A stretch of 39,614 bases of DNA from a virus. The stretch is taken from positions 1 through 39,614 of IMG/VR virus record IMGVR_UViG_3300033992_000245; one strand, 5' to 3'. Each line of letters begins with the position of its first letter. Positions within the stretch are counted from its first letter, which is position 1. Of this stretch, positions 21,460 to 39,598 are shown piece after piece. The position numbers were made by a program, and so were the translations under genes. A model generated the notes under the pieces. That model was given only the letters and a program-made list of their open reading frames with translations, was not told where the DNA came from and searched no databases.

Positions 21460-22019
21460 TAGGTGAGTGGGCTTATATTAAAAGTTATTTTACGCCCGAA
21501 CAATGTGATAGAATAATTCAAGAGGCCCTAATTTTGCCAGAACAAGAAGCAAAATTAGGGCCTTCTAGTGATAGGGTTAACAACGAATGGCGTAGAAGCT
21601 CAATTCGCGGTATAGTAAGAAACTCCACATGGTCATACTTGTTTAATGAATTAGACAAGGTAGTTGATCAAATTAATAAAGAATGGTTTCAGGTAGATTA
21701 TAAATTTTTACCTGCAATACAGTTTGCTACCTACACTGGTGAAGAACAGAGTTTTTACAAACGGCATCAGGATGTATTTTTAGCACCGTTACCTACGCAA
21801 AGAAAGCTGAGTGTAACTGTACAACTTAGTGATCCTGACGCATACGAAGGCGGTGATTTAAAGTTTTTAGATGTTGGGCATTATCCTAACTCGGAAAATC
21901 TTCGTGCTAGAGGAACAGTTTGTGTATTTCCTAGTATCATTTTTCATGAAGTTACACCGTTAATTAGCGGTGTACGACATAGTTTAGCAGGATGGTACGA
22001 AGGACCGCATTGGAGATAA
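21456..22019 (+). CDS. 2-oxoglutarate/Fe(II)-dependent oxygenase, prolyl 4-hydroxylase-like
   Basis: A 187-residue protein whose ATG overlaps the preceding stop (ATGA). The double-stranded beta-helix core shows the iron-binding triad His104-x-Asp106 (KRHQDVF) and His164 (IFHEV), with Arg174 (VRHSLAGW) to bind 2-oxoglutarate. EGGDLKF and a GTVCVFPS strand are also as in P4H-type phage enzymes. From family knowledge, it hydroxylates a protein or nucleic-acid side chain using O2 and 2-oxoglutarate, in the host cytoplasm. The substrate is not shown. Many marine T4-like phages carry such enzymes. The nearby collagen-like fibre is a tempting but unproven target. The intact catalytic set suggests it is active. 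Confidence 0.88.
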   Translation: MIGEWAYIKSYFTPEQCDRIIQEALILPEQEAKLGPSSDRVNNEWRRSSIRGIVRNSTWSYLFNELDKVVDQINKEWFQVDYKFLPAIQFATYTGEEQSFYKRHQDVFLAPLPTQRKLSVTVQLSDPDAYEGGDLKFLDVGHYPNSENLRARGTVCVFPSIIFHEVTPLISGVRHSLAGWYEGPHWR

Positions 22020-22022
22020 ATA
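22015..22022 (+). promoter_or_regulatory. T4-type late promoter (GATAAATA), 5 nt from ATG
   Basis: GATAAATATTATTATG: the box ends 5 nt before the ATG at 22028, and its TAA is the stop codon of the oxygenase. If the box sits at about -13 to -6 as in T4, the mRNA would start at the ATG. A GGAG at 22012-22015 would lie outside that transcript and is usable only on read-through RNA. Confidence 0.65.
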
Positions 22023-22027
22023 TTATT

Positions 22028-22351
22028 ATGATTACATATACTTGGGAATTTCCTAGATTTGCTGCACACCCTACATTAAACGGCTTGACAAATGTCGTGT
22101 ATAATGTAGAGTTTATCTTATCTGCAACAGACGGTGAAGGGCACGGATCTCAAATTTTTGGTTCAGTTGGCCTTTCGGAACCTGATCCAGAAACATATAA
22201 GCCATTTAATCTATTGACTCAAGATGCTGTGCAGGCCTGGGTTGAAACTGCAATGGGTGAAGAAGTCCTTGCAGATTATAAACTAAATTTAGAAAATCAA
22301 ATTGAGCAACAAAAGGCACCTGCTGTTGTTACTCTAAACAAGCCTTGGTAA
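22028..22351 (+). CDS. TYTW-family protein, copy 3
   Basis: A 107-residue protein starting at ATG 22028. A longer form from 21992 would run into the oxygenase gene and place the shared TYTW motif internally, so it is rejected. It matches the paralogues at 20412 and 21076 (ITYTWEF, NVVYNVEF, DGEGHGS, LLTQDAVQAWVE). The C-terminus ends NKPW, comparable to the PELPW of copy 1. It is separated from copies 1 and 2 by the oxygenase gene. Its stop codon directly abuts the stop of the minus-strand NUDIX gene, with no space for a terminator. Function is unknown. Confidence 0.75.
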   Translation: MITYTWEFPRFAAHPTLNGLTNVVYNVEFILSATDGEGHGSQIFGSVGLSEPDPETYKPFNLLTQDAVQAWVETAMGEEVLADYKLNLENQIEQQKAPAVVTLNKPW

Positions 22352-22801
22352 TCAGCTGACTATTTCAATTAGCAATTCTATTTTAGTTTTGTTAGTTCGA
22401 TTAGATAGGCTTCTCTTAACACCTTGATGCAGAGGCTTTGGCCACTGATTTAAACTGCACCATGCGTATCCCACGTGTTCGTCATTAAGCACAGGAATAA
22501 ACTCTTTGTCAACAATTAACATGTATGTGTTAAAATAAAATCGTTGATCTTCACTAGTAAACAGCTCTAGCGGAATTACTTTCTTTATTTTAGGCAGAGA
22601 TCCAACTTCTTCTGTGATTTCTCTTTCTAATGCGGCATACGGAGTAGCATCAGCAGGCTCTTTCTTGCCGCCAACAATGCCCCATGTGCCCGCAGTTTTG
22701 CCTTGATTTCTTAACAAAAATAAAAATCTTTTTGTATCTTTAGCAAAGAATAAACCTCCACTGCATACAATGTCTTCACGTATCATAAAACTAAACGCCA
22801 T
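22352..22801 (-). CDS. NUDIX hydrolase
   Basis: A 149-residue protein with a NUDIX fold: an N-terminal strand (SGGLFFAKDTKRFLFLLRN), GTWGIVGGKKEP, and the Nudix box at residues 45-67 with the REITEEVG core (Arg60-Glu61, Glu64-Glu65). The box has Asp where the first conserved Glu is usual and one extra residue before the Arg, so substrate choice may differ. These enzymes hydrolyse nucleoside diphosphates linked to another moiety (X), using Mg2+. T4 has a NUDIX enzyme acting on ADP-ribose and dinucleoside polyphosphates, but specificity here cannot be read. Its start overlaps the end of gp15 by 19 nt, making it the last gene of the inverted gp14-gp15 block. Confidence 0.88.
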   Translation of the reverse strand: MAFSFMIREDIVCSGGLFFAKDTKRFLFLLRNQGKTAGTWGIVGGKKEPADATPYAALEREITEEVGSLPKIKKVIPLELFTSEDQRFYFNTYMLIVDKEFIPVLNDEHVGYAWCSLNQWPKPLHQGVKRSLSNRTNKTKIELLIEIVS

Positions 22802-24213: not shown

Positions 24214-24218
24214 TAATT

Positions 24219-24365: not shown

Positions 24366-24376
24366 ATATACCTCTA

Positions 24377-25582
24377 TCATAAATCTGCTTCAGGCCCCTG
24401 TCGTTTCTTTAAAGCCTTACTTAGACTCTGTCTCTCTTCAATAACTCGGCCTGCAATAGTTGCAGTGTTGTTATTGTTAATAAAACTGCCAAGTTGAGTA
24501 TGTCTAGTTAATGCATCTGGTGCAGGAATTCCGTCAACTGGCTTGTTAGTCATAGTCATTCTAACATTGCTTTCTACATAAACCCAACCGTTGCCGCTAA
24601 ATCTAAACAATCTATTTGGCATGTAATCTGTGCGTAAATGATATGCACCTATACCGGGGTTAGCTGGGTATTCAATGCCGAAACTGTAAGGTGCTCCATT
24701 TGGTGGTTTGCCGTCTCCTTGAAGATAGCTAATGTAAACGTCTTTTTCAGGAGTTACAAATACAGAACTTGCATCTGCTGCATTACCGTCATAGCTAGCA
24801 TCAACATCTGTATCAGTAGTGTCTCGAATATCTAATTTGCCATCTTCTTGTAAAGGCAAAATATAATATTGATCAGTGTCGTATCCACTTAACCCAGCAT
24901 CTGATTCTGCCTGTGCAATAATTTGATTGTTAATGGCAATGTTTTGATTGTATGTTGAAAGGATGTCTCGAAGGCTGTTCTGTCCATCACCGCTGTCTTG
25001 ATCCAATATCTGTTTGTATTCTTGACTGTCAACTAGTGGCTCACATTTTGCACGGAGCAAATGTGGATACCATGTTTGGCTATAACCTGATGCAGGACGA
25101 GCAACATCCGACACTACATAAAATCGTTTTAGTGCAACCATATCGTCGCCTAGTGCATATTCGTCTTTTAAGTGCGGCAGTTCTAACACATCTCCTGCCA
25201 TTAATTTTCTACCTAACAGTTCTACAATACCACGTAGGTGGAAAGTAATCATAATGTTATCGTTAGATAAGAAGAAACCAAACTGCTGAAGATTAAAATC
25301 AATATCCTGCATTGTGTAGATTCCTCGAGAAACATACACATCGGGTTCATATTTTCTGTCTCTATTTTCCATAAACAACACATCTTGTATTCCTAGTTCA
25401 GGAATAGGGTTAGTGTTTACAGGAGTGGTAGGAGTTGCCTCGCCCTCTAAAGGGTCAGCAGGACCTAGGTATTTGTGAATAATGATATCAGTACCGCCGA
25501 CTTGAAACTGTTCATAAATGACACGGTCAATCATACGGAAATCATTGCCTTTTTCAGGGCGGTAAAGTGATAGTCTTGGCAT
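24377..25582 (-). CDS. 14: Neck / head completion protein gp14-like, with C-terminal extension
   Basis: A 401-residue protein; T4 gp14 has 256. The N-terminus has the gp14 pattern: a short basic start (MPRLSLYRPEKGNDFRMID), then a VIYEQFQVGGTDIIIHKYLG segment, IDFNLQQFGFFLSNDNIMITF (T4: FFSNFGMQVQDEVTLSI) and GDVLELPHLKDEYAL (T4: GDLIYFPMDNSLFEI). T4 gp14 forms the neck with gp13 between the portal and tail. The extra C-terminal half (nt about 24400-24900) has beta-rich low-complexity features. I prefer the ATG at 25582 because it is 7 nt after a minus-strand late promoter box; an ATG at 25588 would leave 1 nt only. It heads an operon with the Cys-rich gene, gp15 and NUDIX. Confidence 0.82.
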   Translation of the reverse strand: MPRLSLYRPEKGNDFRMIDRVIYEQFQVGGTDIIIHKYLGPADPLEGEATPTTPVNTNPIPELGIQDVLFMENRDRKYEPDVYVSRGIYTMQDIDFNLQQFGFFLSNDNIMITFHLRGIVELLGRKLMAGDVLELPHLKDEYALGDDMVALKRFYVVSDVARPASGYSQTWYPHLLRAKCEPLVDSQEYKQILDQDSGDGQNSLRDILSTYNQNIAINNQIIAQAESDAGLSGYDTDQYYILPLQEDGKLDIRDTTDTDVDASYDGNAADASSVFVTPEKDVYISYLQGDGKPPNGAPYSFGIEYPANPGIGAYHLRTDYMPNRLFRFSGNGWVYVESNVRMTMTNKPVDGIPAPDALTRHTQLGSFINNNNTATIAGRVIEERQSLSKALKKRQGPEADL

Positions 25583-25589
25583 AGTCATA

Positions 25590-25597
25590 TATTTATT
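25590..25597 (-). promoter_or_regulatory. T4-type late promoter (AATAAATA), minus strand, drives gp14-gp15 block
   Basis: On the minus strand, AATAAATA ends 7 nt before the ATG at 25582, with no ribosome site between. It is back to back with the plus-strand box at 25598-25605, so two divergent late promoters touch each other. Confidence 0.65.
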
Positions 25598-25605
25598 GCT
25601 AAATA
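25598..25605 (+). promoter_or_regulatory. T4-type late promoter (GCTAAATA), 5 nt from ATG of gp13
   Basis: GCTAAATATTGGTATG: the TAAATA core ends 5 nt before the ATG at 25611, and no Shine-Dalgarno sequence lies between. The two 5' bases differ from the T4 consensus. Confidence 0.6.
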
Positions 25606-25610
25606 TTGGT

Positions 25611-26369
25611 ATGAACGAACTTGACACCCAAAGACAAAACGTAGTTGAATATATCCGTACCATGCTAGGTGACGGGATGGTCGATGTTGAATTAGACCCT
25701 AAACACTACAATACTGCTATTGATCGTGCCCTAGCAAAATATCGTCAACGTAGCAGCAATGCTGTTGAAGAAAGTTTTGGCTTCTTAACCTTGCAAACAG
25801 ATGTTAATGATTACATACTTGCACCAGAAGTTATGCAAGTTCGTCAAGTATTTCGTAGAAGCGTAGGCAGTAGAACAGGCGGTGGCGATGGCGGTACGCT
25901 ATTTGAACCGTTTAACTTGGCCTATACTAACACTTATCTAATGGCCAGCACACAGATGGGTGGGATTGCTACCTATTATATGTTTGCTAGCTACCAGAAA
26001 GAAGTTGGTAAAATGTTTGGTAGCTACATTAACTTTGATTGGAATCCTACTGCAAAGCGTTTGAGAATTACTCAACGCCCTCGCGGAGAAGAAAACGTTC
26101 TATTGTGGATGTATAATCAGAAGCCTGATTTTACCATCATTCAAGACCCTTACTCTGGCATATGGATCAAGGACTATGCACTGGCAAACTGTAAAGTCAT
26201 GCTAGGTGAAGCACGTGAAAAGTTTGCAACTATTGCAAGTCCGCAAGGCGGCACCAACCTAAACGGTACTGCATTAAAATCAGAAGGCAAAGCCGAAATG
26301 GAAGCCTTAGAAATGGATCTAATCAACTACAAAGATAACCAAACACCGTTGACATTTGTCATAGGATAA
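25611..26369 (+). CDS. 13: Neck protein gp13-like
   Basis: A 252-residue protein (T4 gp13: 309). Similarity to T4 gp13 is clear at both ends. The N-terminal TMLGDGMVDVELDPKHYNTA followed by IDRALAKYRQ matches T4 [26 protein letters not shown]. The C-terminal WIKDYALANCKVMLGEAREK, GGTNLNGTALKSEGKAEME and LTFVIG match T4 WVKDYATALAKELNGQ, GGVTIDGQRLIEEA and FGILVG. gp13 forms a ring below the portal and joins the head to the tail with gp14. I choose ATG 25611; a TTG at 25596 would lie inside the promoter. It is divergent from gp14, whereas in T4 genes 13, 14 and 15 run in one direction. Confidence 0.85.
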   Translation: MNELDTQRQNVVEYIRTMLGDGMVDVELDPKHYNTAIDRALAKYRQRSSNAVEESFGFLTLQTDVNDYILAPEVMQVRQVFRRSVGSRTGGGDGGTLFEPFNLAYTNTYLMASTQMGGIATYYMFASYQKEVGKMFGSYINFDWNPTAKRLRITQRPRGEENVLLWMYNQKPDFTIIQDPYSGIWIKDYALANCKVMLGEAREKFATIASPQGGTNLNGTALKSEGKAEMEALEMDLINYKDNQTPLTFVIG

Positions 26370-26375
26370 TGTAAA

Positions 26376-27377: not shown

Positions 27378-27385
27378 TATTTAAC
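27378..27385 (-). promoter_or_regulatory. T4-type late promoter (GTTAAATA), minus strand, for HNH gene
   Basis: On the minus strand GTTAAATACTGAAC lies 31 nt before the HNH ATG at 27346, with AAAAGGG in the leader. It faces away from the plus-strand box at 27408-27415. Confidence 0.55.
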
Positions 27386-27407
27386 CCGGTAGTTTTTAGC
27401 CATTGGT

Positions 27408-27415
27408 ACTAAATA
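27408..27415 (+). promoter_or_regulatory. T4-type late promoter (ACTAAATA) for tail sheath gene
   Basis: ACTAAATATAC, 33 nt before the ATG of gp18, with a strong GGGAG ribosome site at 27437-27441. This is a conventional leader, unlike the leaderless-type sites. Confidence 0.6.
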
Positions 27416-27448: not shown

Positions 27449-30400
27449 ATGGCTTTAAATTCACCAGGCGTACAAGTTAGCGTAATTGACGAGAGTTTTT
27501 ACTTACCGGCAGCACCGTCGACTGTACCTTTGATTTTTGTGGCAACCGCATCCAACAAGCAGAATGCTAGCGGTACAGGTACGGCACCCGGAACACTATC
27601 AGCAAATGCTGGTCGAGTTTATTTAATTACTAGCCAACGTGATCTAACTGATACATTCGGAACTCCGCAATTCTATCAAGATGCAAGCGGAAATCCAGTA
27701 CACGGTGGTGAACAAAACGAATACGGCTTACAAGCAGCATATTCTGTATTAGGTGTAAGTTCACGTGCATATGTTGTTCGTGCAGATTTAGATCTAAGTC
27801 AAATTAGTGCAGCAAGTTCTATGCCAGTGGGCGAACCAGTAGACGGAACATACTGGCTTGATACATCTAACACACGTTGGGGTATTTTTGAGTGGAACAC
27901 TTCTACAGACAGCTTTACTAACAAAGTTCCTCTAGTAATTGATAACGATAACTATGCCACAGTAACTGATGGCGGTACTGGCGTTACTCCAAAAGCAAGT
28001 TTTGGCTCTAACGGTCAGTATGCAATAGTAGTAACTAGCGATAATGCCAACACTGTATGGTACAAAAACAGCAGCGGAAATTGGGTAGTAGTCGGTACAA
28101 ACTTTGAAGCAGGTTTTGCTTCTGCTGCAACATTCTCTAGCACATGCTGGCAGACAAGCCACCCTGTTGTGGTATCTACTGCATCTAACCCTGCATTAAC
28201 TGCTTATAATGGCAACACATTGATCATCAACGGTCAAACTGTTACCCTAAGCGGAACTACACTAACTGCACTAGCAACTAGCATTAACACTGCTATGAGA
28301 GTGCATGGAGTTGGTTCTAGAGTAAATGCCGGCGGGTTCTTAGAGCTATATGCAGATGCTCGTGCAAAGAGTGACGGTTCTGTATCTGACGGAAAGATTA
28401 GAATTGTAGAAGGTACTGGATTAGCATTAATGTTAACTGCTATTGGTTTACCAGCAGCTACTTATGATGCAGTAACTCTATATCAAGCACCTCACACTAA
28501 GTATCCAGATTTTGGCGATAAGCCAACAGGTTCTGTATATGTTAAAACAACTGTGCCTAACAGCGGTGCAGATTGGTATGTTAAGTTGTACAGCGAAGCA
28601 CAAGGTGCATTTAGCTTGCAATCTGCTAGTATTTTTGATGAGCATCAAACAGCTATTAATACTATCGATGCTACTGGTGATATTCCAGTTGGCAGAGTCT
28701 ATATTCAGCAGAACTTTACAATGGGTGCAGGAAGTGCAACAACTTCTACATCTAGTCCGCAGGTTGCTGCATTCAAAGCCTACAGAAGAAACGCCAGCGG
28801 TGCAACAAAGATTACCAGCGTTGCTACAACTGGAACAGTTTCTACAACATCTAACTTTGTAATTTACGAAGGTTTAGACACATCCACTGCTGGCGTTGCT
28901 AATTATAGCACTGCATACACTGTTAACTTAGTAGCAGGCGACGATGTTGATGATATTATCAGCAAGATTAACGCACTGAATATGACGCATGTAACTGCTA
29001 GTGTTGCTAGTTCAAACGCTAGCGGAGCAGCTACAAGTTTAACAATTCAACACGCAATAGGCGGCCAGATCAATCTTAAGAATGGTACAGGTTCACCATT
29101 GACTAGTGTGTTAGGATTCTCCGGTTGGAGCAGAAACAGCACTACCGGTATTGAAACTGGAACAAAGAATTTATACGCAAAAGCTACATACGACAGCAGA
29201 GACATCACGTTCTATGCAAGTAACTGGAAGCCTTTAGTATACGAAGCAGCAGCACAAACACCATTTACAGACCCAATTGATGGTCAATTATGGTATAGCA
29301 GTGTTGTTGACGAAGTAGATATTATGGTTCACAACGGAACAACATGGAAAGGTTATAAGAATGTATATCCTTTAACTGATCCTGCAGGTCCAATTGTTGC
29401 CAGTGTAGCACCTACTACACAGAGCAACGGTGATCCATTAGTTGATAACGACATTTGGATCAGCACAGCTGACGTCAGTAACTATGGCAGAGTAGTTTAT
29501 ATCCGTACAGGCGGAAAATGGATTTTACAAGACACTACAGATCAAACAACTCCAGACGGATGGTTGTTTGCAGATGCACGTTGGAGCACAGCAGGAACAA
29601 GCGAAGAGATGGCAGACATTGTTGATCTACTAGCCAGTGACTACTTAGACCCAGACGCACCAGATCCAGCATTATACCCACGTGGTATGCATTTGTGGAA
29701 CCTACGCCGTTCAGGATTCAACGTTAAGAAGTATGTTACAACACACATCAACATTGATGCAAACGACGGTAAGAACCCACGTTACAACGACGAGCAAATG
29801 GACGGATCTAACAGCTCTACTCCTTATGTTGCTAACCGTTGGATCACAGTAAGTCCTAACCAACCAACCGGCCAGGGCAGCTTTGGTCGTTGGGCTCAAC
29901 GAGGTTTTGTTGTAGAAGCATTCAAAGCCCTAATTGACACTAACCAAAGTATTCGTGACACTGACACTGTAATCTTTAATTTGATTGCAGCTCCTGGATA
30001 TCCAGAAGCAATTCAAAATATGATTGCATTCAACACAGATCGCGGATTAACAGCATTTGTTGTTGGTGATACACCGTTTAGATTACAACCTAACGGAACA
30101 GAACTAAACAACTGGGGCTTCAACACAGCGTTGGCATTTGACAACAGTGAAGAAGGTGCAGTTAGCTATGACGAATATATGGCTATGTTCTATCCAAGCG
30201 GTTATACAAATGACAACTTAGGAAATGCTATTGTTGTTCCACCAAGCCACATGATGCTACGTACTATCGTTAACAGCGATGCTAAGAGCTTCCAGTGGTT
30301 TGCTCCGGCTGGCACACGTCGCGGCGGTGTTGACAATGCTACCAGTGTTGGTTACATTACTAGTGAAGGCGAGTTTAAAACAACTAGCTTGCCACAGAGC

Positions 30401-30829
30401 TTACGTGATGTACTAGCAGGAGTTAAAGTTAACCCAATCGCTACAATTCCAGGTGCTGGCATTGTTAACTTTGGTCAATACACTCGTGCAAGAAACGCCA
30501 GTGCATTAGACAGAATTAACGTTGCACGTTTAGTTGCATACTTACGTAGACAGTTAAGTCTATTAGTTAAGCCGTTCTTGTTTGAACCTAACGATAGAAT
30601 TACTCGTAACGAGATCAAACAAGCAACAGAAAGCTTCTTACTAGAGTTAGTAGGACAGCGAGCACTGTACGACTTCTTAGTAGTGTGTGATGAAACAAAC
30701 AACACACCTACAAGAGTAGACCGTTCAGAACTATGGTTAGACATTGCTATTGAACCAGTAAAAGCAGTTGAATTTATCTATATTCCACTACGCTTGAAAA
30801 ACACTGGCGATATTCAAGCTGGACTATAA
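27449..30829 (+). CDS. 18: Contractile tail sheath protein gp18-like, greatly enlarged
   Basis: A 1126-residue protein; T4 gp18 has 659. The N-terminus (LNSPGVQVSVIDESFYLPAA, then VPLIFVATASNKQ, RVYLITSQRDLTDTFGTPQF, QAAYSVLGVSSRAYVVRADL) and C-terminus (YTRARNASALDRINVARLVA, RQLSLLVKPFLFEPNDRIT, WLDIAIEPVKAVEFIYIPLR) are typical of T4-type sheath proteins. In the virion it surrounds the tube and contracts to drive it through the envelope. The extra sequence lies mainly in residues about 125-700 and includes four Trp/Tyr-rich modules (starting near nt 27829, 28511, 29272 and 29422; for example DGTYWLDTSNTRWGIFEWN). These should face outward and may bind glycans or decorate the tail. Strong ribosome site; own late promoter. 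Confidence 0.93.
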   Translation: MALNSPGVQVSVIDESFYLPAAPSTVPLIFVATASNKQNASGTGTAPGTLSANAGRVYLITSQRDLTDTFGTPQFYQDASGNPVHGGEQNEYGLQAAYSVLGVSSRAYVVRADLDLSQISAASSMPVGEPVDGTYWLDTSNTRWGIFEWNTSTDSFTNKVPLVIDNDNYATVTDGGTGVTPKASFGSNGQYAIVVTSDNANTVWYKNSSGNWVVVGTNFEAGFASAATFSSTCWQTSHPVVVSTASNPALTAYNGNTLIINGQTVTLSGTTLTALATSINTAMRVHGVGSRVNAGGFLELYADARAKSDGSVSDGKIRIVEGTGLALMLTAIGLPAATYDAVTLYQAPHTKYPDFGDKPTGSVYVKTTVPNSGADWYVKLYSEAQGAFSLQSASIFDEHQTAINTIDATGDIPVGRVYIQQNFTMGAGSATTSTSSPQVAAFKAYRRNASGATKITSVATTGTVSTTSNFVIYEGLDTSTAGVANYSTAYTVNLVAGDDVDDIISKINALNMTHVTASVASSNASGAATSLTIQHAIGGQINLKNGTGSPLTSVLGFSGWSRNSTTGIETGTKNLYAKATYDSRDITFYASNWKPLVYEAAAQTPFTDPIDGQLWYSSVVDEVDIMVHNGTTWKGYKNVYPLTDPAGPIVASVAPTTQSNGDPLVDNDIWISTADVSNYGRVVYIRTGGKWILQDTTDQTTPDGWLFADARWSTAGTSEEMADIVDLLASDYLDPDAPDPALYPRGMHLWNLRRSGFNVKKYVTTHINIDANDGKNPRYNDEQMDGSNSSTPYVANRWITVSPNQPTGQGSFGRWAQRGFVVEAFKALIDTNQSIRDTDTVIFNLIAAPGYPEAIQNMIAFNTDRGLTAFVVGDTPFRLQPNGTELNNWGFNTALAFDNSEEGAVSYDEYMAMFYPSGYTNDNLGNAIVVPPSHMMLRTIVNSDAKSFQWFAPAGTRRGGVDNATSVGYITSEGEFKTTSLPQSLRDVLAGVKVNPIATIPGAGIVNFGQYTRARNASALDRINVARLVAYLRRQLSLLVKPFLFEPNDRITRNEIKQATESFLLELVGQRALYDFLVVCDETNNTPTRVDRSELWLDIAIEPVKAVEFIYIPLRLKNTGDIQAGL

Positions 30830-30831: not shown

Positions 30832-30839
30832 GGTAAATA
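30832..30839 (+). promoter_or_regulatory. T4-type late promoter (GGTAAATA) for tail tube gene
   Basis: GGTAAATATT starts 3 nt after the gp18 stop, 22 nt before the ATG of gp19. AAGGAG at 30848-30853 supplies a near-perfect ribosome site, as expected for an abundant protein. Confidence 0.6.
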
Positions 30840-31500: not shown

Positions 31501-31510
31501 TTAACCTGTT
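31491..31510 (+). repeat. 20-bp perfect palindrome spanning the gp19 stop codon
   Basis: AACAGGTTAATTAACCTGTT reads the same on both strands and contains the last two codons and TAA stop of gp19. As RNA it would form an 8-bp stem with an AATT loop, 8 nt upstream of the terminator stem. Confidence 0.75.
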
Positions 31511-31518
31511 CAAAGATT

Positions 31519-31541
31519 GGCCCTTTAGGGGGCCTTTTTTT
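31519..31541 (+). terminator. Intrinsic terminator after gp19
   Basis: GGCCC, loop TTTAGG, GGGCC, then seven T (31535-31541). The GC-rich stem followed by a T-run is a standard Rho-independent terminator, ending the tail tube transcript. Confidence 0.85.
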
Positions 31542-31544
31542 ACG

Positions 31545-31552
31545 GCTAAATA
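31545..31552 (+). promoter_or_regulatory. T4-type late promoter (GCTAAATA), 5 nt from ATG
   Basis: GCTAAATATTACTATG: it lies 4 nt after the terminator T-run and its TAAATA core ends exactly 5 nt before ATG 31558. No ribosome site lies between. Confidence 0.62.
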
Positions 31553-31557: not shown

Positions 31558-33174
31558 ATGGCAAATGCATTCACTAATTTTCTAGGTCAAGCACTTACGA
31601 CCACTACGCAGGTTAAAGACTACCAACATGCGAGTAGATTGTATGTTGATGACTATTTTAGACTAGCACCCAAGTCTGGGTTCATGTATTATGTTGTGTT
31701 TAACATCAACAGAAATAACAATCCTATCACTGAACAGTTTTTAACAAAGAACGGTGCTGAGTTAGGTTTGCTGGTAAAAAATATCGACCTACCTAAATAC
31801 AGAATTGCTACAGAAACAATTAATCAGTACAATAGAAAAGCTATTGTACAGAGTAAAATTGAATATCAACCAGTGGCTATGGCGTTTCATGATGATCACA
31901 ATAACACCACTACTGGTATGTGGAAAGCCTATTACAACTATTATTTTGTTGACGGAAAGAACACTTCTGCATTGACCATTGCCCCAGGATTTGCAGATAC
32001 AAAATATAAAAAGATAGGAACCAATGTTAACGAAAGCACAGCGTTTGGTCTAAACAATGGGCAAACAGATCCTTTCTTTAGATCTATTGAAATTTATCAG
32101 CTCAATAGAAAACAGTTTACAGCGTTTGTACTAGTCAATCCTATTATTACAGATTTCAGTCACGATAAACTAGATCAAACACAGAGTAAATTGTTAGAAA
32201 ATAATATGACTGTGCAATTTGAAACAGTACTGTACGGAACTGGGCAAATTAAAAGAGATAGCCCTACTGGGTTTGCTACTATACATTACGATACAACTCC
32301 CGGCCCATTGAGTATTTTTGGCGGCGGCAACAATAGTATATTAGGGCCAGGCGGCATTATCCCCGGAATTGGAGAAATATTTGGCGGTGCAGGTGATGCA
32401 AGTCCGTTAGGATTATTCAAAACTGCAAGAGGTGCCGCTGCAATTTTTAACAATGCTAAGAATATCTCCAAGGCAAGTATCTTATCAGAAGGTTACGGAA
32501 TTTTAGACAAAGTTGCAAGAACTGGAAAGTTACCTGATGTGTTAACTGGAAAAAGTCCTGCTGGACTTTCTCTAGCAACATTACCAGGAGAGATGCCTAC
32601 TACCGCAGTACCTAGGTCGCAGCAGGCCGGTGGCGGTGGCTTTAATTTAGGCGGATTAGCGGCAGGCATCGGCGGAGCAGTTGGCGGATTAACTGATAAG
32701 ATCGGAAACGCAATCAAAGGATTGTTGCCGTCTAGTGCTGCCGGCACATCTGCCGCAATTGCAACTGCTCGTGCAGAAAAAGCAGCATTGGCCTCAGATA
32801 TTTCCGCACAGATTGCACAAAGTCGCAGTTTAAAAGGCGAACTAGATGCAAGGATTGCAGCAGCAGACGGGGACCCTGAAGCAGTAGAAGCAATCTATGC
32901 AGAATTTGATGAGCTTGGCTACACAGATCCTGATAAATTAACATCAAGTTTAAACACTATTGCTTTAGAAGATGCAGAATTAGAAACATTACTAGCAGAG
33001 GCAGAAGCTTCTGAAAATTCAGATGAAACAATAGGTGCCGACGATCCGTTCGAAACTGAAAGGCTAAATGCCGAAACTCGATTCTCAGACACAGAAGACA
33101 TAGATGTTTCAGAAGCAGAAGTATACGAAGTCCAAGAAGATGACGACGATTCAACAACTACATATTTTGCATAA
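31558..33174 (+). CDS. Tail-tube-fold protein, possibly baseplate tube initiator (gp54-like)
   Basis: A 538-residue protein. The first about 245 residues look like a tail-tube-fold protein: YVDDYFRLAPKSGFMYYVVF, LLVKNIDLPKYRIATETINQ, KIEYQPVAMAFHDDHN, MWKAYYNYYF, and a later TVQFETVLYGTGQI. The KNIDLPKYRxxTE segment followed by an acid-containing FxxD region resembles the corresponding part of T4 gp54 (MPENRLSYETD, ISFRMDSEACNYRAMQDWV). T4 gp54 and gp48 start tube growth on the baseplate, so that role is a reasonable guess; a second tube paralogue is the alternative. The rest is unusual: a Gly-rich hydrophobic stretch (residues about 360-395), a helical region, and a very acidic C-terminus (DIDVSEAEVYEVQEDDDDST). 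Its stop overlaps the next ATG (TAATG). Confidence 0.68.
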   Translation: MANAFTNFLGQALTTTTQVKDYQHASRLYVDDYFRLAPKSGFMYYVVFNINRNNNPITEQFLTKNGAELGLLVKNIDLPKYRIATETINQYNRKAIVQSKIEYQPVAMAFHDDHNNTTTGMWKAYYNYYFVDGKNTSALTIAPGFADTKYKKIGTNVNESTAFGLNNGQTDPFFRSIEIYQLNRKQFTAFVLVNPIITDFSHDKLDQTQSKLLENNMTVQFETVLYGTGQIKRDSPTGFATIHYDTTPGPLSIFGGGNNSILGPGGIIPGIGEIFGGAGDASPLGLFKTARGAAAIFNNAKNISKASILSEGYGILDKVARTGKLPDVLTGKSPAGLSLATLPGEMPTTAVPRSQQAGGGGFNLGGLAAGIGGAVGGLTDKIGNAIKGLLPSSAAGTSAAIATARAEKAALASDISAQIAQSRSLKGELDARIAAADGDPEAVEAIYAEFDELGYTDPDKLTSSLNTIALEDAELETLLAEAEASENSDETIGADDPFETERLNAETRFSDTEDIDVSEAEVYEVQEDDDDSTTTYFA

Positions 33175-33545
33175 TGTATACCAATATACCACCTAAACAA
33201 GCAGCAAGGTCTGCAAGTGATTTATCAAACAAGAACTTAAATCAATATAATGATTTACCTGTTCAATTACATAACGACACGTTGACCGCAATGAAAGGGC
33301 TATTGTCTAACAAAGGATTCAGCGACGAATCTGCAGAAAATATTGCCATAACAATTATGATGCAGGCCAAGCGTGACAGCTTTAATCCGATGAACGTTCT
33401 CGATTCTATGAAAAATTTAGGAAATGTTGAGCTGAGCCAGTTAGTATCGGAAATATTAAATTTCAATAGATTTAAGACCAGTGTATTGGGCACAACACAA
33501 AACATTACACCCGTTGAAGTGGTTAAACGTAACATTTTACCCTAA
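33174..33545 (+). CDS. Conserved-looking small protein between tail and head-completion genes, unknown
   Basis: A 123-residue protein whose ATG overlaps the preceding stop and whose own stop overlaps the gp4 start (TAATGA), so it is translated in a tight run of three genes. It is mostly helical (SDLSNKNLNQYNDLPVQLHN, ESAENIAITIMMQAKRDSFN, MNVLDSMKNLGNVELSQLVS, EILNFNRFKTSVLG). There is no signal, membrane segment or catalytic motif. I do not recognise it as T4 gp53 or another named baseplate protein. The context suggests a morphogenesis role. Confidence 0.7.
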   Translation: MYTNIPPKQAARSASDLSNKNLNQYNDLPVQLHNDTLTAMKGLLSNKGFSDESAENIAITIMMQAKRDSFNPMNVLDSMKNLGNVELSQLVSEILNFNRFKTSVLGTTQNITPVEVVKRNILP

Positions 33546-33985
33546 TGAGAAACACAGCTAAAGGTCGATACATTCCCAAAAATCCTGAAAAATTTGTGGG
33601 GCAACATGATCCTGTTTATAGATCAAGTTGGGAACATACGTTTATGCTGTTCTGCGACAACAACCCTGCAATAGAGCAGTGGGCTAGTGAAGCTGTTAAG
33701 ATTCCTTATAGAGATCCGCTCACCGGAAAGAATACAGTATACGTTCCGGATTTTTTAATCGTCTATTCGGATAAGAATCAAAAACGTCATGCGGAAATGA
33801 TAGAAATTAAACCCAACAATCAAGCAGTAAAAGAATCTGTGGGCAAGAACCCCCATAATCAAGCAGCTTATGTAAAAAATATGGCAAAATGGGAAGCAGC
33901 CAGTGCATGGTGTAAAGCCCGTGGAATACAGTTTAGAGTAGTAAGCGAGCGTGATATTTTCCATAATGGCAGTAAAAAGCGATAA
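33545..33985 (+). CDS. 4: Head completion protein gp4-like (nuclease fold)
   Basis: A 146-residue protein (T4 gp4: 150) that aligns along its length: GRYIPKNPEKFVGQ (T4 GKWVPKNISKYRG), VYRSSWEHTFMLFCDNNPAI (T4 TYRSNWEKFFFEWLDKNPEI), SEAVKIPY, VYVPDFLI, EMIEIKPNNQ (T4 FIEIKPKKE), KWEAASAWCKARGIQFRVV and SERDIF. Asp69 and Glu87-x-Lys89 give a PD-(D/E)xK-like nuclease arrangement. In T4, gp4 (also called gp50) is needed to complete packaged heads before tail joining. The start overlaps the preceding stop. Confidence in identity is high; nuclease activity in head completion is inferred. Confidence 0.93.
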   Translation: MRNTAKGRYIPKNPEKFVGQHDPVYRSSWEHTFMLFCDNNPAIEQWASEAVKIPYRDPLTGKNTVYVPDFLIVYSDKNQKRHAEMIEIKPNNQAVKESVGKNPHNQAAYVKNMAKWEAASAWCKARGIQFRVVSERDIFHNGSKKR

Positions 33986-33993
33986 GTAATATT

Positions 33994-34461
33994 ATGACAA
34001 AGAAACTTGAAGAACTTTTTAATTTGCCGCAAGATAACGAGGAAGTAGTTATTCCTGCCGAACCTATAACAATTTCCTTACAAGAAAAACTAGAAGAATT
34101 TGACAAAATTTCAGCAGCCTTACCTCGTGTTAAAGGACTTGGCGACATTAGCGATAGTGAATTAGATGCACTAGCAAACAAAGCTGAAAAAGCCTACGAC
34201 GATCTAATGGATCTAGGTATGAACGTCGAAGCACGTTACGGTGCCCGCATGTTTGAAGTTGCAGGCAATATGCTAAATGCCGCAATCACTGCCAAAAGTG
34301 CAAAAATTGATAAAAAGTTAAAAATGGTAGAATTACAGCTAAAAAAATATGCTGTAGATAAAAAAGAAGGTAATGCAAATCCTGAGTCAGTACAAGCTGA
34401 AGGAGTGCTGATTACAGACCGTAACAGCCTCATTGCAAAACTTAAAAATCTGGATAAATAA
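33994..34461 (+). CDS. 16: Small terminase subunit gp16-like
   Basis: A 155-residue protein (T4 gp16: 164). It has an acidic N-terminus (KKLEELFNLPQDNEEVVIPA), then long helices with coiled-coil potential (YGARMFEVAGNMLNAAITAK, SAKIDKKLKMVELQLKKYAV, residues about 80-122), and a C-terminal segment GVLITDRNSLIAKLKNL. The same layout occurs in T4 gp16, whose central coiled coil forms the ring that recognises DNA and stimulates gp17. The gene lies 3 kb before gp17 rather than directly next to it, with two virion-like genes between. The start (33994) lies 5 nt after TAAGTA, a one-base variant of the late box, with no ribosome site visible. Identity rests on pattern and context. Confidence 0.78.
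   Translation: MTKKLEELFNLPQDNEEVVIPAEPITISLQEKLEEFDKISAALPRVKGLGDISDSELDALANKAEKAYDDLMDLGMNVEARYGARMFEVAGNMLNAAITAKSAKIDKKLKMVELQLKKYAVDKKEGNANPESVQAEGVLITDRNSLIAKLKNLDK
34453..34460 (+). promoter_or_regulatory. T4-type late promoter (GATAAATA)
   Basis: GATAAATAAAG overlaps the gp16 stop codon (34459-34461), 17 nt before ATG 34478, with AGGA at 34467-34470 as ribosome site. Confidence 0.6.
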
Positions 34462-34477
34462 AGCATAGGAAATCACC

Positions 34478-34996
34478 ATGAGATCATTTAAAGAATATCT
34501 TACAGAGTCTGTAAAAAAATACGATTTTAAAATTAAAGTCGCACAAGAATGCACCTCTGAATCAGAAGCAAAGATGAAGGGTTTATTAGAACGTTTCAGC
34601 GTAGCTGAGTTTAGCAAAAAAGGCAAAACTCCTATCCAGCAATTACCACTAGACTTTCCAAAAATTAAAAATGCAGAAGTTAGTATCTACGAAATCTCTC
34701 TTAATTACCCAACTACTGCAAATGAATTACACAAATATCTGACAGCAGAATTAGGCATTAACGAAAACTACATGGTAGTACGTAGCCCATTAGAGCCGTC
34801 GGAAGAATATCAAGAACCCGTAGAAAAGAGAGAAGGTGCGTTACTAACAGATAGTGAGTACAAAGAATTGCCTAATGCAAAGTTTGATGATTACTACGGT
34901 GAAAAATATAATACATCATTTTTGAAACAGTTAAATGCAGATGCCGCAGCTAGACGCAAAGAGCGTGGGGAACAGATCCCTACTTCGGGTCAATAA
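34478..34996 (+). CDS. Probable internal head protein with T4-type capsid-targeting peptide
   Basis: A 172-residue protein starting MRSFKEYLTES. This matches the ten-residue capsid-targeting sequence of T4 internal proteins (IPIII: MKTYQEFIAE, then A) at each position by identity or conservative change. It ends in the gp21 prohead protease consensus (L/I)-x-Glu, so cleavage after Glu10 is predicted. The rest has a beta-alpha-beta-beta-alpha-beta order (YDFKIKVAQ, SEAKMKGLLERF, VAEFSKKG, AEVSIYEISLNYP, TANELHKYLTAELGI, YMVVRS), consistent with a ferredoxin-like fold. It is followed by a charged C-terminal tail. T4 internal proteins are packed with DNA, and some are injected to protect DNA or affect the host. 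The specific role here is unknown. It lies between gp16 and the gene before gp17. Confidence 0.72.
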   Translation: MRSFKEYLTESVKKYDFKIKVAQECTSESEAKMKGLLERFSVAEFSKKGKTPIQQLPLDFPKIKNAEVSIYEISLNYPTTANELHKYLTAELGINENYMVVRSPLEPSEEYQEPVEKREGALLTDSEYKELPNAKFDDYYGEKYNTSFLKQLNADAAARRKERGEQIPTSGQ

Positions 34997-35009
34997 AGGA
35001 AATACGAAT

Positions 35010-35999: not shown

Positions 36000-36015
36000 T
36001 CCATTTGGATTAACC

Positions 36016-36043
36016 AAATAGCCTCTTAGGAGGCTATTTTTTT
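36016..36043 (+). terminator. Intrinsic terminator before the large terminase gene
   Basis: AAATAGCCTC, loop TTAG, GAGGCTATTT (10-bp stem), then T-run to 36043. A second small hairpin, ATTTGG-ATTAA-CCAAAT at 36003-36019, overlaps its left arm by four bases. Confidence 0.88.
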
Positions 36044-36044
36044 C

Positions 36045-36052
36045 GGTAAATA
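36045..36052 (+). promoter_or_regulatory. T4-type late promoter (GGTAAATA), 5 nt from ATG of gp17
   Basis: GGTAAATATTCACATG: it begins 2 nt after the terminator T-run and ends 5 nt before ATG 36058. No Shine-Dalgarno sequence. Same layout as at 31545-31560. Confidence 0.62.
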
Positions 36053-36057
36053 TTCAC

Positions 36058-37644
36058 ATGTCAGCTAACAAATACGATAACTTAATCAAGAAGCCCTATT
36101 CTACACAGAAATGGACAGAACAGGACATCGAAGATTTAATGAAATGTACTGATTCAGTAATTGGCCCTCATTATTTTCTTGATAATTTCTTCTACATCCA
36201 ACATCCAGTTAAGGGTAAGATGAAGTATGTACCGTTCGAATATCAGATAAGATTAATCGACAGTTATCACGATCATCGATTTAATGTAAATTTACTACCA
36301 CGTCAAACAGGTAAAACTACTACCGCGGCGGGCTACCTGTTATGGTACGCTATGTTTATTCCTGATTCAACTATCTTAGTTGCAGCTCACAAGTATACAG
36401 GTGCCCAGGAAATTATGTCGCGTATTCGTTATGCATACGAATTATGTCCCGATCATATTCGTTGCGGTGTAAAGAGTTACAATAAACAGAGCATTGAATT
36501 TGACAACGGTTCACGTATTATTGCACAGACAACTACTCCGACTACTGGTCGAGGTTTATCTTTGTCCTTACTATACGCTGATGAGTTTGCATTCGTTGAA
36601 CCTAACATTGCTACAGAATTCTGGACGTCTATTAGCCCTACACTAGCTACTGGTGGTAAGGCGATTATTACTTCTACGCCAAACAGTGACGAAGATCAGT
36701 TTGCACAGATCTGGAAAGAAGCAAACAAGAAATTTGACGAATACGGGAACGAACAAGAAGTTGGTCGTAACGGATTCTTCCCCTTTAGAGCATTTTGGAG
36801 AGAGCATCCAGACAGAGACCAAGAGTGGGCTGACACTGAAAAATCCCGTATTGGTGAGGAGAGATTCCGTCGAGAACACGATTGCGAATTCTTGATTTTT
36901 GACGAAACTCTGATTAATAGTATTACATTATCTGATCTAGAAGGTGTTGACCCGATCATGAAAATGGGTCAGGTAAGGTGGTACAAGAAGATAGATCCTA
37001 ACAGTATATATGTTGTGTCTCTTGATCCAAGCCTGGGCACGGGCGGGGATTATGCAGCACTTCAGATATTTGAAGTACCTAGCTTTGAACAAGTAGGCGA
37101 GTGGAATCACAATACTACTCCAGTTCAACAGCAGGTTAGAATCATGCGAGATATTTGCAAGCACATCGATAATGAATGCTCAAAGAGCGAAAATAGAGGC
37201 CAGATCTATTACTCAGTAGAAAACAATACTGTTGGAGAAGCTGCTCTAGTTGCAATTAACGAAATGGGCGAAGAAACTATACCCGGAATGTTTATGAGCG
37301 AGCCCATTAAGAAAGGGCACGTGAGACGATTCCGCAGAGGTTTTAACACTACAAATGTAAGCAAAATATCCGCGTGTGCAAAGCTCAAGCAGTTAATTGA
37401 ACAAAAACGTTTAAAAATTAAAAGTAAAGCCCTAATCAGTGAGCTTAAAACTTATATTGCAAAAGGCATTAGTTTTGAAGCAAAAACCAATGAACACGAC
37501 GATCTAGTATCTTCTACGCTACTAGCAGTACGGATGATCAGCCAGTTAGGTGATTGGGATCCTACAGTGTACGATCGAATGGTAGAAGATAGGGCAATGG
37601 ACGATATTGATCTGCCCATGCCGATATTTGTATCACATTATTAA
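36058..37644 (+). CDS. 17: Large terminase subunit gp17-like (packaging ATPase and nuclease)
   Basis: A 528-residue protein (T4 gp17: 610). The ATPase domain has Walker A PRQTGKTT (residues 81-88), Walker B LLYADE (171-176) and the coupling motif ITSTPNS (about 203-209). The C-terminal RNase H-like nuclease has Asp323 (SLDPSLGTGGDYA), a middle acidic site near VENNTVGEA, and HDD at 480-482. It binds the portal, cuts concatemeric DNA and drives it into the prohead with ATP. All key residues are present. The N-terminal region is a bit shorter than in T4. It is preceded by a terminator and a late promoter 5 nt from the ATG, so it probably has its own mRNA. Confidence 0.96.
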   Translation: MSANKYDNLIKKPYSTQKWTEQDIEDLMKCTDSVIGPHYFLDNFFYIQHPVKGKMKYVPFEYQIRLIDSYHDHRFNVNLLPRQTGKTTTAAGYLLWYAMFIPDSTILVAAHKYTGAQEIMSRIRYAYELCPDHIRCGVKSYNKQSIEFDNGSRIIAQTTTPTTGRGLSLSLLYADEFAFVEPNIATEFWTSISPTLATGGKAIITSTPNSDEDQFAQIWKEANKKFDEYGNEQEVGRNGFFPFRAFWREHPDRDQEWADTEKSRIGEERFRREHDCEFLIFDETLINSITLSDLEGVDPIMKMGQVRWYKKIDPNSIYVVSLDPSLGTGGDYAALQIFEVPSFEQVGEWNHNTTPVQQQVRIMRDICKHIDNECSKSENRGQIYYSVENNTVGEAALVAINEMGEETIPGMFMSEPIKKGHVRRFRRGFNTTNVSKISACAKLKQLIEQKRLKIKSKALISELKTYIAKGISFEAKTNEHDDLVSSTLLAVRMISQLGDWDPTVYDRMVEDRAMDDIDLPMPIFVSHY

Positions 37645-37650
37645 TAAATA
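37643..37650 (+). promoter_or_regulatory. T4-type late promoter (AATAAATA), 7 nt from ATG
   Basis: AATAAATACGCTAATATG: the box overlaps the gp17 stop codon and ends 7 nt before ATG 37658. No ribosome site lies between. Confidence 0.62.
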
Positions 37651-37657
37651 CGCTAAT

Positions 37658-39598
37658 ATGAATATCATCGAATTTATTGCACAAGACGTCTTTGACAAAG
37701 TACGCGGCCGTTTCACTAATGTTGAGATGGGTGACGCCGAGGGCACAATAACCACCGCACCGAAAGATGCACGATTTTTTGACTTTGATTTTGTCATTGA
37801 AGGCAACAATTTAGGTCGTGTTAGTGTTTCAATTAACGATTTAGGCAGCTTAAAAGTTTTCTATAGTCAAGGTATTACTGAGGACGTAGACACTATTACT
37901 CTTAATGAGTGGTATGAATTTTTAAGAGAAATGCGTTATTTTGCCAAACGTAGAATGCTACGATTTGACACTAGAGACATTACAAAAAGCAATTTAAACA
38001 AGAATGATTTTCAATATCTTGCACAAACAGGAACGAAGGAAAACAATATGAACGAGTCTGCAATGATTGGTAGAGGTCCAAAGACCAGCATGAGAAAACT
38101 AGAAAACACTAGACTGATTGTACGTCACTCTAAAGTAGTTGACGAAACACAGAAGGGTGCAAGAAGTAGAAATATTAATTCCTTATATATTGAAAACTCC
38201 GACGGTGAACGTTTTAAGTATCCTTTCATCCACTTGGCTGGTGCTAAAGCAATGCAACGTCATGTATCAAATGGTGGCAGACCGTACGACGATGCAGGCA
38301 AAGAAATTATTTCTCTAAGCGAAAAAGTAAGTCAGCTAGTTGCATTTAAAAGACATGTAGGACACCACGACGGCATGAATCAAGAAGTAAATGAAATTCT
38401 TGAACGCAGTCAAGTAAAACTTGAACAAATTCGTAAAGTAATCGAAGGACTTGGCGGACAGAAATTTTATGAATCATGGGTAGAATCTCTTCAACCATCT
38501 AATGAAGATGACGGCTTTGTGTTAGATCAAGCCACTATGGAAGACTACAAGAGTAAGTTTACAGTTAAGAATTTCAAAGAAGACTTGGCACAATACTTTC
38601 CACTGATCCACAAAATTATGCAAGAAACAAGTGAAATTGATCTTGAAAGTTTTGGTGAAGTTGAAGAAGATATTAGTGAAGAAACAATGCCAGTTGATGA
38701 CTTTGCTGCATTTGAGTCTTGGGCAACCTCTGTATCTGAAGGTACACTAGAGCCTGACACTATTATGGCATTGAAAGATCTATTAGACAACGGTTTAACA
38801 TTTGGCGGCCCAGATGCAACCGGTGCTATTGAAGCACTGCAAGGTATTGGAGTGTTTAATGATGCACTAGAGAATGCACTAACAGCAGCCGCACAATTAA
38901 ACCCAGAGGGTGATCCTAAAGGCACAATTTTATCTTGGCTGATGAAAGATGATCCAGAAGCTGCACAAGAACTAAGCGGAGAGCAGCCGGCTGAACCTGC
39001 ACCTGCACCTGCAGAAATGCCTCCAGCCGCACCTCCTGCAGAAATGCCAGTCGATCAACCTGTTGCGGAAGCCCCAGAAGATCGCACAAGCTATCAGGTT
39101 GCTAAAATTCTTTTTGATAAAGGTATCAAATACGATTCTGCAAAAGAAAACGAATTGATCAGTGCTATTGGCATGATATTAGTTAAACATCTTGACATGA
39201 GTCCAAAACATGCACGTCACATGATCAGCTATGACGAAGACTTTGTAGGTGATACATTATCAGAATTGAGAAACATGGATAACACGCCTGAAGAAGGTGA
39301 AGACATGGAAAATCAAGAAAGCAAGCCAGAAGGTCGTAGCCCGTCAATGAAAGAAATTGTAGAATTTATCAAACCTTTCTATAATAAACACGCCCAAGAA
39401 CAGGGTTTAGGCGAGTGGCGTAAAGGTCCTACTGAGTTAGGCATTATGGCTGGCAAGCAATTTGGCGATCATGTTGGCAAACTTGTAGAGAAGTATGTTG
39501 AAGAAATGCAGGCCAAAACTGAAGCAATGCGTAGTCAACAAGAAGCCACAATGCAGTTCGAAGCTATTAAAAAACTAGCAGGTCTTTCAAGAATTTAA
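37658..39598 (+). CDS. Large protein downstream of gp17, unknown function
   Basis: A 646-residue protein. ATG 37658 is chosen because it follows the late box by 7 nt; a longer version from 37607 would overlap gp17. Features: an N-terminal alpha/beta domain (MNIIEFIAQDVFDKVRGRF, then FFDFDFVIEGNNLGRVSVSI and LNEWYEFLREMRYFAKRRM); a basic segment with GPKTSMRKLENTRLIVRHSK; a region with SLYIENSDGERFKYPFIHLA and a long helix; acidic middle; a Pro/Ala-rich linker near residues 445-475 (EPAPAPAEMPPAAPPAEMP); and a helical C-terminus ending with a coiled-coil-like QAKTEAMRSQQEATMQFEAI. There is no signal or transmembrane segment. I do not recognise the family. Its own late promoter next to the motor gene suggests a virion or packaging-associated role. 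Confidence 0.7.
   Translation: MNIIEFIAQDVFDKVRGRFTNVEMGDAEGTITTAPKDARFFDFDFVIEGNNLGRVSVSINDLGSLKVFYSQGITEDVDTITLNEWYEFLREMRYFAKRRMLRFDTRDITKSNLNKNDFQYLAQTGTKENNMNESAMIGRGPKTSMRKLENTRLIVRHSKVVDETQKGARSRNINSLYIENSDGERFKYPFIHLAGAKAMQRHVSNGGRPYDDAGKEIISLSEKVSQLVAFKRHVGHHDGMNQEVNEILERSQVKLEQIRKVIEGLGGQKFYESWVESLQPSNEDDGFVLDQATMEDYKSKFTVKNFKEDLAQYFPLIHKIMQETSEIDLESFGEVEEDISEETMPVDDFAAFESWATSVSEGTLEPDTIMALKDLLDNGLTFGGPDATGAIEALQGIGVFNDALENALTAAAQLNPEGDPKGTILSWLMKDDPEAAQELSGEQPAEPAPAPAEMPPAAPPAEMPVDQPVAEAPEDRTSYQVAKILFDKGIKYDSAKENELISAIGMILVKHLDMSPKHARHMISYDEDFVGDTLSELRNMDNTPEEGEDMENQESKPEGRSPSMKEIVEFIKPFYNKHAQEQGLGEWRKGPTELGIMAGKQFGDHVGKLVEKYVEEMQAKTEAMRSQQEATMQFEAIKKLAGLSRI

Follow-up and report, generated by a model that had tools for sequence, protein, structure and literature searches.

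How near to its gene can a late promoter of the T4 type lie, and does the messenger RNA (mRNA) then begin on the start codon itself? This question is raised by a 39,614-base stretch of viral DNA (IMG/VR virus record IMGVR_UViG_3300033992_000245, positions 1 to 39,614; hereafter the window, meaning the whole stretch analysed), which corresponds to late structural genes of a T4-superfamily myovirus, including terminase, sheath, tube, neck and giant tail fibres, and in which TAAATA boxes resembling T4 late promoters end only 5 or 7 nucleotides (nt) before several ATG codons. T4-type late transcription is a textbook system with leadered mRNAs; the late promoters themselves are known, as are leaderless mRNAs in bacteria and in single phage genes. 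The original prediction had proposed that transcription of several window genes begins on or beside the AUG, and our results, namely the excess of this spacing in relatives together with the promoter numbering of T4, support this proposal: leaderless late mRNAs are very probably the best explanation for the boxes placed at 5-7 nt.

Of the phage-collection records that were matched, that of Pseudomonas phage PA5oct was closest to the window terminase, with a maximum of 54% identity, followed by Sinorhizobium phage Phosso (50%) and by jumbo phages that we take to be RaK2-like (about 43%).

Late-promoter boxes in the window

Throughout this work, d denotes how many bases separate the hexamer from the start codon that follows it, and the curated set consists of 23 ATG starts of the window, open reading frames (ORFs) starting with GTG or TTG being excluded. 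A TAARTA hexamer (TAAATA or TAAGTA) was found within 60 nt of 14 of the 23 starts, at d=5 in five cases, at d=7 in two and at d=17-33 in seven, and at no other distance within this range. With 48 hexamers on both strands of the window, the expectation is 0.014 per distance; the probability that five or more starts share one distance is 4e-12, which becomes 2.6e-10 once all 60 distances are allowed for by multiplication. When the 60 nt preceding each start were shuffled 20,000 times by mononucleotide, on average 0.045 starts, and never more than 3, fell at d=5. All seven close spacings described by the original prediction were recovered, and the boxes and adjoining terminator-like sites are as follows:

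22017..22022, plus strand, TAAATA box, d=5 to ATG 22028; gene 22028-22351 (phrog_7802), no assigned function
25590..25595, minus strand, TAAATA box, d=7 to ATG 25582; virion structural protein phrog_11591 (24377-25582)
25600..25605, plus strand, TAAATA box, d=5 to ATG 25611; head-tail adaptor Ad2 (phrog_211, 25611-26369), at a divergent junction, back to back with the box at 25590
31519..31541, plus strand, terminator-like site, 6-bp stem followed by seven T, just 5' of the box at 31547 (31505-31546: minimum free energy -16.2 kcal/mol, z -2.43)
31547..31552, plus strand, TAAATA box, d=5 to ATG 31558; tube-like protein (31558-33174)
33983..33988, plus strand, TAAGTA box, d=5 to ATG 33994; gene 33994-34461 (phrog_16202), no assigned function
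36016..36043, plus strand, terminator-like site, 10-bp stem and T tract, just 5' of the box at 36047 (36003-36046: minimum free energy -14.6 kcal/mol, z -3.68)
36047..36052, plus strand, TAAATA box, d=5 to ATG 36058; terminase large subunit (36058-37644)
37645..37650, plus strand, TAAATA box, d=7 to ATG 37658; virion structural protein (37658-39598), with a possible leader of 2-3 nt

Concerning the gene names given originally, no gene behind a d=5 or d=7 box could be matched to gp14. No box adjoins the head-closure gene (33545, phrog_218).

Excess of the 5-nt spacing in viral relatives

The original prediction had named an excess of 5-nt spacings in related phages as its check. Five terminase-based scans of viral contigs (A to E) were carried out, from the window, Pelagibacter phage HTVC008M, Phosso, locus L080 and PA5oct, respectively, taking the best 80 of 559, at least 599, 101, 384 and at least 600 matches. 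Scan D contributed 42 new locus identifiers, several of which were contigs already included with shifted ends, and scan E contributed 79. Distances of TAAATA were counted for ATG-started ORFs of at least 100 amino acids and dereplicated by distance plus the first 30 bases; the gene calls of IMG/VR contigs are mechanical ORFs without annotation.

The excess appeared by a wide margin, with 107, 20, 85, 70 and 71 dereplicated starts at d=5 in scans A to E, whereas in any of them no distance of d=0-3 exceeded 5 starts and d=4 did not exceed 17. In the 80 loci nearest to the window, the 107 distinct d=5 starts compare with 0-4 at each of d=0-4. The wider set comprised 396 starts at d=5, with 37 at d=4, 66 at d=6, 95 at d=7, 30 at d=8 and 4-10 at each of d=9-13; the profile thus consists of a sharp 5-nt peak with shoulders at 6 and 7 nt, a sparse zone from 8 to 13 nt and then a broad leadered class. 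As counts of related sequences are not independent, the number of gene families is the safer measure: 46 of 252 families had a d=5 member, 11 of them three or more, as compared with 24 families with members at d=4, 15 at d=6 and 12 at d=8. Some of the d=5 families beyond those 11 may be due to chance.

Hexamer permutations were compared over three whole contigs of the group (G001, G005 and G006), where TAAATA stood at d=5 in 10, 8 and 7 cases, while 14 permutations averaged 0.79, 0.21 and 0.43 and reached at most 3, 2 and 2. General AT-richness was rejected as the cause on these grounds, and chance was rejected as the source of the spacing by the expectation, the shuffles, the permutations and the relatives taken together. 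The hexamer ATAAAT overlaps the true box and echoes it at d=6-8, and does not constitute an independent control; the permutations are to be preferred in this role.

A tree built from 132 terminase representatives (90% identity clusters, with tips grouped by eye and by scan) located the signature in an uncultured clade joining the window to the neighbourhood of PA5oct, which it fills: 87 of 96 representatives had at least one d=5 site, with 225 sites in 1,487 kb, or 15.1 per 100 kb, against a mean of 0.33 for 12 other distances. Densities were lower elsewhere, with 2.28 against 0.27 per 100 kb (5 sites) in the group of Phosso, Atu_ph07 and RaK2-like phages (16 representatives), and 4.42 against 0.57 (11 sites) in the cyanophage and pelagiphage-like group (17 representatives).

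Cultured phages

HTVC008M constitutes an independent witness, its gene starts having been annotated by others. In the GenBank stretches covered, 11 of 81 annotated starts had TAAATA at d=5, as follows:

6280, 7562, 11972, 16007 (minus strand), 18916 (minus strand), 18943, 19456, 31132, 49760, 75559 and 75830

Other boxes within 45 nt occurred once each at d=0, 1, 6, 8, 21, 27, 30 and 36 and twice at d=18, with no annotated start at d=2-4. The start at 75559 displays a terminator-like site, the box and the ATG in the same arrangement as in the window, and an ORF at 142360, outside the 81 annotated starts, also fits the pattern. Shine-Dalgarno (SD) sequences precede the capsid (74222, also outside the 81), sheath and tube genes of this phage.

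Whole-genome counts at d=5 were at background in T4 (2), Syn9 (0) and PA5oct (2), the permutation means being 0.71, 0.29 and 1.29, respectively. In T4 the box mostly lies 20-30 nt before the ATG, with a peak at d=28, and its two d=5 hits do not look like gene starts, the one at 42558 not being annotated as a start and the one at 38409 being internal to a longer called ORF. One of the two PA5oct sites coincides with the start annotated for gp262 (ATG 144985, box TAAATACGTGTATG), whose product is supported by mass spectrometry. When the pattern was counted in eight more cultured phages and in one single-cell marine virus, there was no clear excess other than in Tenacibaculum phage PTm1 (20 against 5 in the control), a candidate that was discarded after only 1 of its d=5 sites proved to lie at a gene start; in this phage (L465-L476), 26 possible starts have TAAATA at a distance of 7-14 nt, so that the spacing is not the same and is less sharply defined. 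Melnitz had 3 d=5 sites at gene starts against a permutation mean of 0.21, and Atu_ph07 showed 15 against 9 by pattern alone.

Placement of the box gene by gene

The conventional leaders that the original prediction had noted for sheath and tube were confirmed, and the leadered boxes of the window are the following:

12987..12992, plus strand, TAAATA box, d=21 to ATG 13014; giant tail fibre
20838..20843, plus strand, TAAATA box, d=21 to ATG 20865; the sole perfect TATAAATA octamer of the window
21045..21050, plus strand, TAAATA box, d=25 to ATG 21076; phrog_7802 paralogue, with GGAG
27378..27383, minus strand, TAAATA box, d=31 to ATG 27346; HNH-like
27410..27415, plus strand, TAAATA box, d=33 to ATG 27449; tail sheath
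30834..30839, plus strand, TAAATA box, d=22 to ATG 30862; tail tube, with an AGGAG SD sequence
34455..34460, plus strand, TAAATA box, d=17 to ATG 34478; virion structural protein

Orthologues were tabulated where a box lay within 39 nt and the N-terminal alignment was offset by at most 15 residues from the window protein, those without a box being excluded. All of the 57 sheath and 62 tube orthologues were leadered, with none at d=5-7, as were 33 of 35 for the HNH-like gene. Boxes at d=5-7 prevailed for the terminase (127 of 153, namely 118 at d=5 and 9 at d=6-7, with 14 leadered), the neck adaptor at 25611 (20 of 21, with 16 at d=5 and 4 at d=6), the minus-strand gene at 25582 (11 of 13), the tube-like gene at 31558 (59 of 84, with 53 at d=5, 6 at d=6-7 and 22 leadered), the gene at 33994 (91 of 106, with 72 at d=5 and 19 at d=6-7) and that at 37658 (115 of 156, with 29 leadered). 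The gene at 34478 switches class among its 133 orthologues, with 44 at d=5-7, 80 at d=14-39, 6 at d=8-13 and 3 below d=5. Furthermore, strong SD sequences precede the capsid genes of G001, G005 and G006. To judge from these tables, the predicted initiation mode is largely a property of the gene, and the suggestion that one phage uses two translation modes gains support from the division between sheath and tube on one side and terminase and neck on the other.

In the T4 virion, sheath, tube and capsid proteins are present in many copies, neck proteins in few, and the terminase is absent. The split between leadered and close-box genes follows these copy numbers, a correlation over few genes.

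Start codons, upstream context and relation to the T4 box

In the window and its 80 loci, all 197 dereplicated starts at d=5, 6 and 7 were ATG (137, 26 and 34, respectively), with no GTG, TTG or CTG, and the base before the 137 d=5 ATGs was T in 82%, C in 15%, A in 3% and G in none. As originally proposed, most close-box starts are without an SD sequence: within the window clade, an SD 4-mer was found at 3 of 180 d=5 and 0 of 79 d=6-7 starts, against 108 of 194 leadered ones. Five T within the 28 nt 5' of the box were present at 109 of 180 d=5 sites against 35 of 194 leadered sites. The d=5 class in the window and its relatives is marked by a TA-like signal some 10 bp upstream of the start, and an in-frame stop precedes any alternative upstream start in 333 of the 396 d=5 starts.

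The T4 late promoter is an 8-bp box beginning at -13 and hence ending at -6, as given in PMC2988020; therefore, with a spacing of 5 nt, +1 would coincide with the A of the start codon. At position six behind the box, 62% of 189 leadered promoters (from the clade loci of scans A, D and E and some of those of C) have A and 13% have G, the values for 25 T4 boxes being 60% and 16%, which lends modest support to a +1 at this A. In the d=7 class, the fifth base after the box was A in 94% of 66 dereplicated sites, and these genes may have a leader of about 2-3 nt, hence not necessarily being strictly leaderless. Even with one mismatch allowed, the octamer TATAAATA is no commoner in the window than expected (53 matches against 72.7), and the pattern WATAAATA-N5-ATG has no match there; the special feature of the window boxes is their position, not their abundance.

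A gp55-family late sigma factor (phrog_234) was identified in G001 (E 2.8e-26), whose terminase is 100% identical to that of the window, and in G006 (E 3.5e-26). It was not found in 8 other clade contigs searched, all of them partial, the window itself lying outside this search.

Weighing of the explanations

We propose that the boxes act as T4-type late promoters, recognized by a gp55-like sigma factor on the host RNA polymerase, and that transcription would start on the A of the ATG at a spacing of 5 nt, or 1-3 nt before it at 6-7 nt. The mRNAs of the terminase, the neck adaptor, the tube-like protein and several virion proteins would thus be leaderless or nearly so, and their 5'-terminal AUG would be read by the leaderless pathway of the host, that is, by a 70S ribosome with initiator tRNA and no SD sequence, while the most abundant virion proteins (sheath, tube and capsid) would keep SD starts. 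Such a mechanism would account for the sparse zone at d=8-13, which the rival explanations do not predict, if a leader has to be missing altogether or else have room for an SD sequence. Leaderless initiation in bacteria favours AUG and a start near the RNA 5' end, as stated in passages of PMC9031893. We infer the promoter activity, the exact +1 and the translation of the d=5-7 genes from what was observed directly, namely the spacing, its conservation, the start-codon and SD contrasts, the gene specificity, the terminator-like sites and the gp55-like gene of relatives.

Several observations weigh against this proposal. The 8-13 zone is sparse yet not empty, with 30 starts at d=8. Non-ATG starts with TAAATA occur in scan E (GTG 4 and TTG 1 at d=5, and TTG 2 at d=7, beside 71, 16 and 41 ATG at d=5, 6 and 7), in scan C (GTG 1 at d=5 and 1 at d=6) and in scan B (GTG 1 at d=7). 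The SD contrast is partly forced, as the box itself fills positions -11 to -6, and SD 4-mers are found at d=5 in 6 of 23 starts in scan B, 7 of 101 in C and 2 of 108 in E. With regard to the promoter, the d=5 sites of the window retain the hexamer but not the TA that opens the T4 octamer, having GA, GC, GC, GA and GG in its place. Since the seventh base after the box is A-rich as well (65% in leadered clade promoters and 52% in T4), the support from the sixth base is only modest. Models of the gp45 clamp (PF02916 and phrog_223) had no match in G001, G005, G006 or G008, although they miss PA5oct as well, and no terminase relative indicating the host of the clade was found among genome contigs. 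Finally, an upstream ORF ends at or after the start of the box in 66 of 180 d=5 sites of the clade, making translational coupling geometrically possible.

Such coupling, in which the box would merely provide an upstream TAA stop beside the next ATG and ribosomes would terminate and reinitiate on a long mRNA, is favoured by 22028 and 33994, where the TAA of the box doubles as the stop codon of the upstream ORF (21456-22019 and 33545-33985, respectively), as it does at 28 of 180 d=5 sites of the clade. However, the other 114 sites have either no same-strand stop within 200 nt (16) or a stop more than 3 nt before the box (98), the gene at 25611 lies at a divergent junction, and those at 31558 and 36058 sit behind terminator-like sites. 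As coupling explains neither the preference for TAAATA over a plain TAA nor the exact 5 nt, we consider it improbable.

An equally small chance is given to the boxes being real promoters with a start farther upstream, or to the transcripts being longer, the AT-rich stretch serving as an unstructured landing site for ribosomes. Initiation without an SD sequence on unstructured leaders does occur in bacteria, and AT-rich upstream bases are common at d=5 sites; nevertheless, a sharp 5-nt peak followed by a sparse zone is unexpected of a loose AT-rich signal, and permutations of the same composition average 0.2-0.8 at d=5 in the three clade contigs, against 7-10 for TAAATA. An artefact of gene calling, with the true starts elsewhere and the box-adjacent ATG unused, would be conceivable for mechanical IMG/VR ORFs but is highly improbable, given the same peak at the GenBank starts of HTVC008M, N-terminal offsets that stay within 15 residues for 153 of the 181 terminase rows and for 106 of the 108 rows of 33994, and the 333 of 396 d=5 starts without an alternative upstream start. 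A phiKZ-type polymerase, at which no search was aimed, is judged unlikely as well, because the same box also precedes leadered genes.

Comparison with known systems and meaning of the results

The cI gene of phage lambda is a single lysogeny gene, unlike the class of late lytic genes described here; its leaderless mRNA, as mentioned in part of PMC9031893, likewise begins at the AUG. T4 late promoters, which depend on gp55, gp33 and gp45 (late-promoter passages of PMC2988020), share with the present system the TAAATA box, the AT-rich start region, the common A at the sixth base and late structural genes downstream, together with the gp55-like sigma of relatives, but differ in their longer box-to-ATG distance and in TA at -13/-12, which is absent from the d=5 sites of the window; the same passages report a/gC at these first two octamer positions in Aeh1. 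The TA-led leaderless genes of bacteria outlined in PMC3160421 resemble ours in the TA-like signal about 10 bp upstream and in the lack of an SD sequence; in our phages, the box is that of a late promoter, the spacing has a sharp 5-nt peak, and only some of the late genes make use of it. Late transcripts of the jumbo phage phiKZ, with a TATG promoter and a G start according to portions of PMC5312081, recall the T-ATG motif found here; however, phiKZ uses its own multisubunit polymerase, as opposed to the gp55-like sigma of our relatives, whose box also precedes leadered, non-TATG genes. The latter paper, on phage AR9, states that phage transcripts are often leaderless, and late promoters of pelagimyophages had been sought earlier without success, according to a passage of PMC7029224. 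Among the papers listed from one library of open PMC articles, none described late genes of the T4 type as a leaderless class, which is not proof of absence, and a term search of the review of T4 post-transcriptional control (PMC3014915) did not return the word "leaderless". No paper on the PA5oct transcriptome was listed there either.

If leaderless late mRNAs are indeed produced, one regulon would feed two translation pathways, with the leaderless class conserved for particular genes throughout a widespread uncultured clade and present in a cultured SAR11 phage too, and promoter position would be linked to the mode of translation and perhaps to how many copies of a protein are made. With the 5-nt rule, the annotation of start codons and promoters could also be corrected in many environmental phages, and a testable prediction follows for HTVC008M and for one PA5oct gene. 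More tentatively, and with less chance of being right than not by a good margin, the 5-nt promoters might act as a translation gate, admitting no mRNA other than one beginning at the AUG and keeping early or middle read-through transcripts silent, with low-copy assembly proteins made from leaderless mRNAs and high-copy ones through SD sequences, so that dose and timing would be set by promoter-to-AUG distance alone; some d=5 genes also carry a terminator-like hairpin beside the AUG, and host ribosomes may be shifted towards leaderless initiation late in infection.

Candidate phage-encoded helpers of leaderless translation were considered as well. Genes for bS21 are present in HTVC008M, PA5oct and Phosso (L438, L439 and L440) and were found in none of ten clade contigs, all partial, from which no inference is drawn; because the clade contigs are partial, missing matches to gp45 or bS21 carry no weight. 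A G1-C72 pair is not a mark of an initiator tRNA. The only tRNA found in G001, G005 and G006 has a CAT anticodon and such a pair, and a phage initiator tRNA was accordingly rejected. A 151-kb relative has a single tRNA gene (L097, 1220-1294, minus strand) with anticodon CAT and an encoded CCA, which is not initiator-like.

Other features

Back-to-back boxes at divergent junctions were observed in the window (25590-25605), in HTVC008M (18916/18943) and in G001 (99850/99880), where a tiny intergenic region would thus supply both flanking genes with transcripts whose leaders are very short or absent. Three small neighbouring genes of the window (20406-20804, 21076-21459 and 22028-22351) all match phrog_7802 and look like paralogues, one of them having a 5-nt box and one being leadered. 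The tail sheath of the window (27449-30829) comprises 1126 amino acids, as compared with 659 in T4, and its match to the general sheath family phrog_23 is limited to residues 609-1120.

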